Assembly (NCBI GenBank): GCA_021803085.1
Contig: JAJZMD010000008.1
Span: 1-64,000, forward strand
From: Actinomycetes bacterium
GTDB taxonomy: Bacteria > Actinomycetota > Acidimicrobiia > Acidimicrobiales > RAAP-2
Direction of reading: 5' to 3'
Length of the DNA stretch: 64,000 nucleotides
In this document: positions 30,963-34,698 of the stretch, one piece after another
How the letters are laid out: every line of letters starts with the position of its first letter
How positions within the stretch are numbered: the stretch's first letter is position 1
Program-made: the position numbers and the translations under genes
Notes under the pieces: generated by a model
Told to the model about the DNA's origin: nothing
The model's database searches: none
The model's input: the letters and a program-made list of their open reading frames with translations, nothing else

Positions 30963-31454
30963 TCAGGCTGTCTTGCACGCTGCCGCTGTCGAGCCCGGCA
31001 ATCTCGTGGTCTTGGTCACGACGGTGAGCTCGCCCGTCGCGGCCTTGTACACGAGGGCGTAGCCATTCTTTCCCACCTGCGCGCTCGGCACCTGCCTCAA
31101 CCATGGGCCGCTCGAGTTCGTCGGTGTGGCAGTTGTCTTCTTCGTCAACACGGCGAGCGTTGCCGGATAATTGCCTGTTGGAGCCTGGGCCGCGTACGCC
31201 TCGATCGCCGCCTGAACGGTCCTCACCGTCGCGGCGCACGCCACAACTGATGCGTCCCGGGTCGCACCCACCACCGACTTGCTCGTGGTGGTCGTGTCGC
31301 TTGCCGAAGCCACGATGGCGGCGAGAATGGCCAGCAGGACCATCCCGACCAGGATCCCGAACACGGTCCAGCCCCCCTGGTCGAGCCACTCCCTCGTCGC
31401 GAGGAGTTTCGAGAGCCTTCCGGCGCCGACGCGGGATGTTCCGGAACGTGCCAC
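30963..31454 (-). CDS. type IV prepilin/pseudopilin-like protein
   Basis: A 163-residue protein with a basic N-terminal leader, then DQGG immediately followed by one long hydrophobic helix (WTVFGILVGMVLLAILAAIV, about residues 29-48) and a globular domain, the architecture of type II secretion pseudopilins and type IV pilins. The cleavage site would be after Gly28; the residue at mature position 5 is Gly, not the usual Glu. Cys96-like and C-terminal Cys (AAACKTA) could form a disulfide. The GTG at 31454 is chosen because AGGAGG lies 6 nt upstream. No pilus assembly genes are nearby, so it is an orphan here. Confidence 0.75.
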   Translation of the reverse strand: MARSGTSRVGAGRLSKLLATREWLDQGGWTVFGILVGMVLLAILAAIVASASDTTTTSKSVVGATRDASVVACAATVRTVQAAIEAYAAQAPTGNYPATLAVLTKKTTATPTNSSGPWLRQVPSAQVGKNGYALVYKAATGELTVVTKTTRLPGSTAAACKTA

Positions 31455-31993
31455 TCCAGACCTCCTCCTACCAATGGTTCCACGAATCGACAGGGGACCG
31501 GGGGCCAGCTGCAACGCGCGCCGTGCTCGCGCAGTCTGGCTTCAGAATTCGGCGAGCGCGTTCCCCGAGGCCGGGCCGTCGGAGCCCGGCCCTCTTCGCG
31601 AACGGGTACCGTCCCGCCCGCGCTCGCTGTCGAGCTTCGAACGGTTCTTCTCCACAGAGCGCCGAGCTGCCCCCCTGCCCCCCGAGTGGAACGGGGCAGC
31701 TCGGGAACCGTGGTCCTCGGTCCACCCGGTCATCCGTGACAAGGTGAGCGCGGAGGGAGCACCGATTTGACCGACTACGGCGACGCGCCGTATCCATCGC
31801 TGAGCGCGAAAATTCGAACTTGACCGGGTGGCGCGAGCTCCGCTGATCCAAGCAGGGACGTCCCTCTGACCTATACGCACGACCAGCAGCAATTACGCGA
31901 GACGTTGCGTGGGCCGTAGGCACTCGTATTCGAACTGCCCCGACCTGCGAGAACGCTTGGGCGCCCTGAACGCATGGATTCGCCAGCGGGCCG
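31455..31993. other. intergenic stretch, 539 bp, no gene recognised
   Basis: Upstream of the prepilin-like gene and downstream of the zinc-ribbon gene. Open frames exist on both strands but none has a plausible ribosome binding site, family resemblance or typical codon bias. Composition is slightly less GC-rich than the flanks. It probably marks the left border of the accessory segment. Confidence 0.5.
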
Positions 31994-32578
31994 TCAAACG
32001 CGGATGACCTGGACTCCCGGGACGGCGTCGTAGTCGTCGTCCTGGGTGACGACGGGGATCTGCTCGACGATGGCCGTTGCCGCCACGAGGGCAGCCGGGT
32101 CCCGCGCTGTCGTGGCGGTGGCGATCCTGGCCTCGTGGCCGCACCACCAGCGGCCGGCGGCACCGATGGCGACGACGGAGACGACGGGCTCCGGGGCCGG
32201 GGTCACGTGCGGACGGGGACGCCGCGGAGTCGGGCGCCGAGGCTCGGCGGGCACGGGCTCGTCGGCCAGCACGACGACGTCGCCCAGCTCGTGACGGGCA
32301 CCGCACGTGCGCTCGACACGCGTCGCCAGGACGTCGGCGGCGTGGTCGTCGGTGGCCATGGGCACCCGCACGCGTGCCGTGATCTGGCAGCACGGCATGC
32401 GCACGGTGAACGTCTCGACGGTGCGTGACGGCCTCGGAGCGTCACGTCTCGGAGCCTCGGACGCCGGAGCATGGCGCACACGGGCGGGGACGTACACGAC
32501 GGCATGGCACCGGCCGCAGCGTGACTTCTGCGAGCGTGCAGGGCTGTCCCAGCCGTAGCCGCACTTCGGGCACGTCAT
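31994..32578 (-). CDS. zinc-ribbon protein with PIN-domain-like C-terminal tail
   Basis: A 194-residue protein of two unlike parts. The N-terminus is a zinc ribbon (Cys 3, 6, 21, 24: MTCPKCGYGW and RCGRCHAVVYV). The middle has two further Cys-containing segments (MPCCQITARV, RTCGARHEL) and a Pro/Arg linker. The last 38 residues (DPAALVAATAIVEQ, then VVTQDDDYDAVPGVQVIRV) look like the C-terminal third of a VapC-type PIN ribonuclease, without the N-terminal catalytic part. So it may be a recombination chimera rather than an active nuclease. The ATG lacks a clear ribosome binding site. It lies downstream of whiB and the palindrome. Confidence 0.65.
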   Translation of the reverse strand: MTCPKCGYGWDSPARSQKSRCGRCHAVVYVPARVRHAPASEAPRRDAPRPSRTVETFTVRMPCCQITARVRVPMATDDHAADVLATRVERTCGARHELGDVVVLADEPVPAEPRRPTPRRPRPHVTPAPEPVVSVVAIGAAGRWWCGHEARIATATTARDPAALVAATAIVEQIPVVTQDDDYDAVPGVQVIRV

Positions 32579-32731: not shown

Positions 32732-33010
32732 TCACGACGCACCCACCGCAGGCTCGGAGCCTTCACGACGGAGCCTCCTCCGCTGCCGTTCTTTCGTCCC
32801 GCCCCATACTCCGAGGCGCTCGTGCAGGCCATAGGCGAGGCAGGCGGCACGGACCGGGCACGACGCGCACACGGCCCGTGCCCTCGTGATGTTCGCTCCG
32901 CGCTCGGGGAAGAACACGTCGGCCGGCAGCCCTCTGCACGCGGCACGGAGCCTCCACGTGGGGTCGGCCTGGGCGCGGCCTCGTGGGACGTCGGCCGTGA
33001 TCGCGCCCAC
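32732..33010 (-). CDS. WhiB-family iron-sulfur transcription factor
   Basis: A 92-residue protein with the WhiB [4Fe-4S] cysteine set C25, C48, C51, C57 (C-x22-C-x2-C-x5-C), preceded by DPTWRLRAACRG, DVFFPERG, and followed by the turn GVWGGTKERQRRRLRR. WhiB-like proteins are actinobacterial regulators that bind sigma factor region 4 and respond to redox signals. The GTG at 33010 is the apparent start; internal starts are possible because no Shine-Dalgarno is clear. Its place in an accessory segment suggests an element-borne regulator, as often seen on actinophages and integrative elements. Confidence 0.9.
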   Translation of the reverse strand: MGAITADVPRGRAQADPTWRLRAACRGLPADVFFPERGANITRARAVCASCPVRAACLAYGLHERLGVWGGTKERQRRRLRREGSEPAVGAS

Positions 33011-33755: not shown

Positions 33756-33959
33756 CCAGGGGCGCTGGCCGCCAGCGCGGCCTTGGGAAGCGAGCCCCAC
33801 GGTCTGGCGGGAGCGCGCCGACGAGATCGTGCGGCGGCTCGGACCCGCTCCATCTCGCCGATGGCCTCGCCGATCGCGCGCTGGACGTTCGAGAAGTGAG
33901 CCACAGGGGGCGCACGAGCCTCTGGCACGCACGCCGGTTGCCCCAGGAGGAGAAAGCCA

Positions 33960-34166
33960 GGACCGCCGGCGAGGCGACGACAAGTTCTTGGCTGACCTCG
34001 AAACGCATCGGGACCAGGCGATCCTCCTCGTCATGGTCTTCGGTGGCCTGCGGGCAAGCGAAGTCCGCTCCCTGCAGCTCCGTGACGTCGACCTGGGCCT
34101 TCGCCGCGTCCGCGTGGCGGGAAAGGGCGACCGCGAACGCACCGTGCCGGTCGACGGCGCGTTCTC
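33960..34166 (+). pseudogene. fragment of a tyrosine recombinase (phage-type integrase)
   Basis: The segment translates as FLADLETHRDQAILLVMVFG then GLRASEVRSLQLRDVDLGLR and VAGKGDRERTVPVD, the first half of the catalytic domain of a tyrosine integrase, including the first catalytic Arg in GLRASEV. The N-terminal core-binding domain is absent or frameshifted and the His-x-x-Arg and Tyr parts are missing. It stops exactly where minus-strand ISL3 transposase sequence begins (about 34160-34168). It is near tRNA-Tyr, the type of site such integrases use. Confidence 0.75.
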
Positions 34167-34439
34167 CGTGAAGCTCTTGGCGTCGCAGTGCGGATCCGTG
34201 CACAGCCACCGGCGCCGGCGCCACACCAGGCACACCGGTCGCCCTCCCATCGCCAGGTCCCGGACCGGGACGACGCTTCTGCCGGGTCCAGTCGCCCGCA
34301 CTCCGCAGCGCGGGCAGCCCACCACGCCGGCCGTCGTCTCGACGAGCACCCACAGCTCGCCGTCCTCTTCGGTCTGGCAGAGAACGACGAAGCCGTCCAC
34401 TCCCAGCAGCGCGCTCGAGTCACCACTACGGTCACCCAT
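34160..34439 (-). pseudogene. N-terminal fragment of an ISL3-family transposase
   Basis: From an ATG at 34439 the minus strand encodes LLGVDGFVVLCQTEEDGELW, then VLVETTAGVVGCPRCGVRAT, VRDLAMGGRPVCLVWRRRRW and LCTDPHCDAKSFTE. This is the N-terminal zinc-finger region of ISL3 transposases (Cys pairs CPRC and C-x5-C). After about 94 residues homology stops at the junction with the integrase fragment, and the DDE domain is gone. It is a truncated insertion sequence, not functional. Confidence 0.8.
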
Positions 34440-34612
34440 GCCCTGTGCCCTCCGTTCTCGCTGGCTACTAACCGCAAGAATCGGAGGCGCAGGTCGCCTA
34501 CTGGTGGTTGCCTATGGGCGGGTCACCGGTCTGGTACCGCCCCACGTCAGATCGCGAAGAGCAGGTCTTGTCGTCGCCTTGCGCGGTGGTCCTGGCTTTC
34601 TCTACGGCGATG

Positions 34613-34698
34613 TGGTGGGCCGGGGAGGATTCGAACCCCCGTAGGCTTTCGCCGACAGGTTTACAGCCTGTTTCCTTTGGCCACTCGGACACCGACCC
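34613..34698 (-). tRNA. tRNA-Tyr (GTA), CCA encoded
   Basis: Minus-strand type II tRNA: acceptor GGGTCGG/CCGGCCC (one T-G pair), anticodon stem ACAGG/CCTGT with loop CTGTAAA giving GTA, a long variable arm (CGGCGAAAGCCTAC region), T-arm GGGGGTTCGAATCCTCC, discriminator A and an encoded 3' CCA. The other three tRNAs in the window lack encoded CCA. The 3' end of the gene points toward the truncated integrase and transposase. Confidence 0.96.

Follow-up and report, generated by a model that had tools for sequence, protein, structure and literature searches.

A zinc-ribbon reading frame very probably ending in a captured vapC remnant, beside a conserved site that bounds toxin-antitoxin modules in Acidimicrobiales-type actinobacteria

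The open reading frame (ORF) considered here lies on the reverse strand at 31994..32578 of the window, the whole 64-kb stretch of DNA that was analysed, and encodes a protein of 194 aa with a zinc-ribbon pattern, proline/arginine-rich linkers and a VapC-type C-terminal tail. It is composed of an upstream part (32093..32578, residues 1-162), carrying a CPKC-x14-CGRC pattern, a basic, proline-rich region and further Cys residues, and, in frame with it, of the 3' end of a vapC gene (31994..32092, residues 163-194 plus the stop codon). The vapC 3' flanking DNA (31939..31993, reverse strand) follows, and it is overlapped by a conserved site of about 55 bp (31907..31963, reverse strand) that, in related genomes, bounds toxin-antitoxin modules. 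Just upstream of the zinc-ribbon gene a WhiB-like gene is found (32732-33010, reverse strand; PF02467, 1.7e-20), of a kind also common in actinophages, with matches to 824 phage records, all of them less than 60% identical. To the right of the WhiB-like gene are an integrase fragment, an ISL3-type zinc-ribbon fragment and a tRNA-Tyr gene (34613-34698), together constituting mobile-element debris. Two inverted repeats of about 35 bp (33950-33984 and 34567-34602) flank the 580-bp stretch with the integrase fragment (forward strand) and the ISL3-type fragment (reverse strand), the right-hand repeat being also present on contigs C271, C97, and C12, and the stretch 33950-34602 is probably a decayed insertion sequence next to the tRNA-Tyr gene. 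On the other side, a gene for a pseudopilin-like protein (30963-31514, reverse strand; T2SSG, PF08334, E 0.00015, just above the cut-off) sits between the vapC remnant and a transporter cluster, presumably of the branched-chain amino-acid type.

As to the zinc-ribbon part, the N-terminus, MTCPKCGYGW...SRCGRCHAVV, when read by eye, displays at residues 3-24 the CPKC-x14-CGRC spacing of a C4 zinc ribbon, with two CxxC motifs recognized in the 194-aa protein by the same reading. The C4 zinc ribbon placed at residues 1-24 by the original prediction is thus upheld at the level of a pattern, residues 1-160 being without a match among the models of Pfam (E 0.5) and NCBIfam (E 0.1). A single-sequence AlphaFold2 model of the protein is of low confidence (mean pLDDT 49.3, pTM 0.43), too poor to judge in either direction, and Foldseek retrieved nothing with this model at E <= 0.001. 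Searches of phages, plasmids, viral contigs, and genome contigs with the zinc-ribbon part produced no full-length homologue, the best matches being only weak or partial, one of them at E 9. Residues 1-160 were matched in 14 of the 172 genomes of the family (E <= 0.01; at most 21 candidates per genome scored) and in nine of the 397 genomes of the order (E <= 0.001; at most nine candidates per genome scored), both counts including the query genome and the other matches being weak and partial.

The lack of a full-length homologue in the collections searched, along with the lack of a curated family for residues 1-160, is what would be expected if the ORF upstream of 32092 were not a gene, being instead a GC-rich open frame running by chance into a vapC remnant. 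We consider this unlikely, given the CPxC...CxRC spacing and a relative, L036, whose match to residues 1-50 is weak (42%, E 2.0e-5) but makes sense as a zinc ribbon, and given that the codon-position G+C of the upstream part (0.73/0.65/0.86) resembles that of the neighbouring WhiB gene; the values for the tail (0.81/0.34/0.91) are coding-like as well. Small zinc-ribbon proteins occur in actinobacteria and their phages, and the ORF is similar to these in its N-terminal CPxC...CxxC and in having a WhiB-like gene next upstream, but it differs in possessing neither a family model nor a full-length homologue, and in its borrowed C-terminus. If the protein acts at all, it would most likely do so as a small nucleic-acid-binding or regulatory protein, via its N-terminal part.

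The identity of the tail is revealed by a search of its own genome, with three matches: the ORF itself, a protein on contig C46 (94%, residues 162-194) and a protein on contig C202 (82%), nothing further upstream being aligned. The latter two, both 127 residues long, are intact proteins of the VapC type, and an antitoxin-like frame precedes the gene of each (the antitoxin being named from sequence). The C46 protein possesses a PIN domain (PF01850, 8.5e-14), and its single solved relative by sequence is chain B of PDB entry 3dbo (1.3e-20), entered as an uncharacterized protein, which we take to be VapBC-5 of M. tuberculosis. The tail, with its VTQDDDY, is homologous to residues 96-127 of the 127 residues of VapC, with 31 of 33 residues identical to the C46 protein and one conservative replacement besides the junction residue. 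At the DNA level, bases 31939-32092 show 143/154 identities to the C46 vapC locus, over 99 coding bases and 55 bases beyond the stop codon. The original prediction of a PIN-type tail is therefore correct in respect to VapC homology (94%, and 143/154 for the DNA), but not in extent, the tail encompassing 32 and not 38 residues, and about a quarter and not a third of the PIN protein.

The Pfam model for PIN (PF01850) finds the whole protein at E 0.06 (14.4 bits vs. a cut-off of 23.6), over profile positions 94-118 of 120, and the last 48 residues alone at E 0.0049, still below the gathering cut-off, no complete PIN domain above the curated cut-off being present in the 194-aa ORF. Such a score, taken on its own, could be read as a chance PIN likeness of a tail that belongs to an unrelated conserved domain. 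This reading is refuted, to the point of retaining practically no probability, by the DNA identity past the stop codon, unexpected from either chance or convergence: as the match extends 55 bases past the stop, it is to a piece of a locus and not to a protein domain alone. Nor were homologues found that would place the tail in an unrelated domain; those of its close matches for which the correct frame was translated are proteins of the VapC type.

The PIN active site is built around a four-acid motif, the positions in question being catalytic. Of the acids of the intact VapCs, the fusion keeps D113 and D115 but lacks an equivalent of D6, E37, and D95; as the position of D95 is occupied by A162, three of the four conserved PIN acids are without a counterpart. 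Compared to VapC toxins (PF01850, 3dbo_B), the ORF is thus similar in that its residues 163-194 correspond by homology to the final 32 of the resident VapC, and different in that the first 95 residues and three of the four conserved acids are absent. Judging from its residues, the tail is unable to build a PIN active site, and it is probably catalytically inert and probably neutral.

The DNA identity sets in abruptly at 32092, the first base of codon 163, just after the vapC codon for the third conserved aspartate. Nineteen distinct vapC-type loci show a DNA match at this position, and the alignment ends exactly at 32092 in 13, no more than three bases away in two (L016, L025), and 16 bases further in one (L017), the alignments to three weaker loci stopping earlier. 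The rest of vapC is not traced in the window: the first 95 residues of VapC produce only chance-level matches (best E 0.46), and the two vapBC loci (C46 and C202), compared as DNA with their antitoxin frames included, match the window at E <= 0.01 only at 31939-32092 and 31994-32092. By this comparison no cognate vapB is present directly upstream of the tail, the next upstream gene being the WhiB-like one. The original prediction that the rest of the PIN domain is missing thus stands, and the missing segment, when looked for over the 64 kb, was not found. The differences from C46 are distributed unevenly, with 3/99 in the coding part vs. 8/55 in the flank (Fisher p 0.017), and, as they are fewer in the coding part, most of the divergence probably predates the truncation, the gene then being an intact toxin; these 11 differences suggest that the truncation was recent.

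The source assembly is fragmented (296 contigs; 93.35% complete, 3.58% contamination) and contains several copies of vapC, and repeats favour chimeras, so it has to be weighed whether assembly or binning has artificially linked a vapC end with unrelated sequence. We hold this to be highly improbable, as the vapC piece is 93% identical to the C46 copy and 81% identical to the C202 copy, leaving no exact repeat for the assembler to collapse, and as the 32092/32093 junction is interior to a contig of 75,326 bases. Due to the presence of the integrase fragment and the tRNA-Tyr gene to the right, an att site of a tyrosine integrase inside vapC was also considered, and this was rejected: neither the vapC end nor the tRNA end recurs among repeats of at least 16 bases between 29000 and 38000, and no 5' part of vapC is found in the window.

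When the whole protein was compared to 61 genomes, 28, the query genome included, produced matches at E <= 0.01. For 25 of the 27 other genomes the match is via the VapC end, and for two (G015, G048) it is only via the zinc-ribbon or the linker part. One apparent two-part relative (G007:C164; residues 19-194, 35%) proved to be an ordinary VapC preceded by a frame that is open by chance, BLASTP aligning only residues 163-194. The two-part architecture, for which a homologue search had been suggested, is thus absent from the 61 relatives searched with the whole protein (0/61), and, with no relative carrying it, the fusion is known from one genome.

The original prediction also entertained a new role for the tail, such as the binding of an antitoxin or RNA, and for this no support is found. 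Such a functional tail might, for example, bind or titrate the VapB antitoxin, or bring the zinc-ribbon protein to vapBC operators, and it is indeed in frame and 94% identical (31/33) to a resident VapC, in a genome that encodes two intact VapCs of this family, both behind an antitoxin-like frame. However, no second fusion is seen in the 61 relatives, the zinc-ribbon part has no full-length relative among the candidates scored from the 172 genomes of the family and the 397 genomes of the order, the tail is without the first three quarters of the PIN fold, and the identity is accounted for by recent capture, making this role very unlikely. As none of the 61 relatives shows the architecture, the most likely reading of the tail is that of an inert remnant attached to the upstream zinc-ribbon gene. 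One feature counts against the remnant account: across the junction the frame stays open, with a coding-like composition, as expected for a fusion that is expressed and kept.

Overall, there is good reason to believe that the tail is a captured vapC 3' end, an illegitimate event having joined the upstream zinc-ribbon gene in frame to the remnant, in agreement with the original proposal of a decayed toxin captured by another gene, and with the abrupt start at 32092, the 55-nt flank match, the absence of the rest of vapC from the window, the conserved site next to the remnant and the 0/61 relatives in its favour. On our reading, a vapC gene would probably once have been present here, within a site-bounded toxin-antitoxin module; an illegitimate event, either a deletion or an insertion of the zinc-ribbon/WhiB segment, would have severed it after the codon for the third aspartate; and the zinc-ribbon gene, which lay upstream and happened to be in frame, would have come to borrow the last 32 vapC codons and the stop. 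We infer both the nature and the direction of this event, as well as the inert, probably neutral character of the tail. Deletion and insertion are not distinguishable, since no orthologous locus in the pre-event state was found. The mobile-element debris to the right of the ORF fits an illegitimate event.

The first clue to the site adjoining the remnant was that bases 31909-31938 are 97% identical to a part of a vapBC array in a relative. The pattern derived for it (up to three mismatches) was found in all six genomes tried, these having been chosen for carrying related vapC loci, while a reversed control pattern produced no matches. A sequence-only model, built from 20 sites, mostly from the same six genomes, has 31907-31963 as its single match in the window at E <= 1, and it matches 25 of the 61 genomes at E <= 0.001 and, with the threshold tightened to 1e-6, five of the 296 genomes of the class, with the query genome counted in each case. 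G202, a genome in a single contig, carries two sites at a distance of 650 bp. A pattern scan of genome contigs yielded 34 stretches, by title four from Acidimicrobiaceae, one from Acidimicrobiales and 29 from "Actinomycetes bacterium," and the pattern was not found in viral contigs. These titles, together with the WhiB-like gene, point to an actinobacterial, Acidimicrobiales-type affiliation of the window. The sequence of the site is strongly conserved. Further sites, placed head-to-tail around toxin-antitoxin modules of several kinds in related genomes, are found in L102 (1896-1938, 2590-2644, and 3923-3977), in L106 (1695-1747, 2404-2464, and 3167-3214) and in L105 and L108-L115. A separate observation concerns L102, in which a gene for a group II intron reverse transcriptase (350-1846; PF00078, 6e-35) ends about 50 bases before the site at 1896-1938, a group II intron RNA (RF02005) being recognized at 20-241. 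Some group II introns target attC sites, and the arrangement in L102 is reminiscent of this.

In 11 contigs of nine genomes, 17 pairs of neighbouring sites are less than 1 kb apart (starts separated by 519-856 bp), wider-spaced pairs being left out and a split hit (G007:C157, 11791-11846) being taken once; some of these sites are partial or weak, such as the one at G002:C143, 3404-3440 (E 1.8e-4), which overlaps the start of an antitoxin frame. The two sites have the same orientation in 17/17 pairs, and all 17 intervals contain a gene for a toxin or an antitoxin recognized by Pfam (ParE, PIN, Phd/YefM, PemK/MazF, HicA with HicB, or TacA1/RHH), with only the antitoxin scanned in two Phd intervals and in the RHH interval. 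Several of the intervals are related copies of one module, notably of the ParE type, and thus the 17 do not represent independent events. The genes are directed along the site in nine intervals and opposite to it in eight, so the site is not simply a promoter or a terminator. The second set, the 34 stretches, contains 15 neighbouring pairs that are 150-1200 bases apart, again in the same orientation in 15/15. Upon removal of four loci already seen (five intervals), toxin-antitoxin genes are assigned to eight of the remaining 10 intervals, on the basis of the sequences and the pooled Pfam results, and in one of the eight a TacA1-like antitoxin accompanies a GNAT protein. The independence of the two sets is incomplete, since some of these loci may stem from genomes of the first set. 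As a control, 10 intervals matched in length were taken at random from the same loci, each 1.5 kb or more away from any site (three of them from one locus), and these encode no toxin-antitoxin family (0/10 intervals, 28 ORFs). The other two of the 10 site-bounded intervals, L124 6765-7348 and L144 2054-2866, both from the same MAG, share a frame for a small membrane protein with no Pfam match, representing either a non-toxin-antitoxin module or an unrecognized toxin-antitoxin module.

By itself, the ORF presents a plain case of gene-end capture, in which the PIN match is real yet silent on function, and the 194-aa ORF should not be annotated as a PIN protein. While the protein is ordinary, its main value is as a pointer to the site-bounded toxin-antitoxin modules, and these are worth pursuing. 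A site orientation that is constant whatever the gene direction is the pattern that a site-specific cassette system would leave, and the arrangement suggests that the site-bounded modules may be mobile. We tentatively propose, at somewhat less than even confidence, a putative cassette system of Acidimicrobiales-type actinobacteria, with a non-attC site of about 55 bp, no recognizable IntI, head-to-tail toxin-antitoxin arrays independent of gene orientation, and a presumed recombinase. This recombinase might, if the proposal holds, and it may well not, collect, shuffle, and exchange modules (ParE/Phd, VapBC, HicAB, MazF, GNAT/TacA), the vapC remnant being a decayed unit. The zinc-ribbon protein could then, with the same reservation, be seen as an example of cassettes also donating gene ends to their neighbours. 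Should the site be recombined, the system would represent a platform resembling integrons or dif modules, in a group for which none was found in the portion of the literature covered, and the movement and accumulation of toxin-antitoxin modules would become directly testable. A search of the literature, covered at the level of abstracts, found no description of such a system in Acidimicrobiia, which is weak evidence of novelty.

Two known systems invite comparison. One is presented by integron gene cassettes, including arrays without a neighbouring integrase; integrons are also reported from archaea (PMC9668308). Similar to such arrays, the sites here recur in one orientation (17/17 and 15/15 pairs; starts 519-856 bp apart in the first set), forming direct repeats between small modules rich in toxin-antitoxin genes, and one site comes after a gene for a group II intron reverse transcriptase. 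The difference is that no IntI passes the cut-off of the integron integrase model TIGR02249 in any of the 172 genomes, in a limited test (best 92.9 bits vs. 265; at most 12 candidates per genome scored, in the query genome 12 of 58) that lacks a positive control, as 0/14 control genomes passed it. A further difference is from attC, as the site here has a strongly conserved sequence but no conserved fold: five stretches folded as DNA display no clear structure (z -1.88 to 0.24), and a consensus of 20 sites contains no pairs. With neither folding nor consensus pairing, the site is not called attC, and the integron reading, while conceivable, was not adopted, with no integrase over the cut-off in that limited test and no fold. 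Another known system is presented by the dif (pdif) modules of Acinetobacter, in which toxin-antitoxin genes are likewise bounded by short conserved sites. The pdif sites, of the XerC/XerD type, alternate in orientation. The sites described here, in contrast, do not alternate, all 17/17 and 15/15 pairs having the same orientation, and they differ from pdif in both sequence and length.
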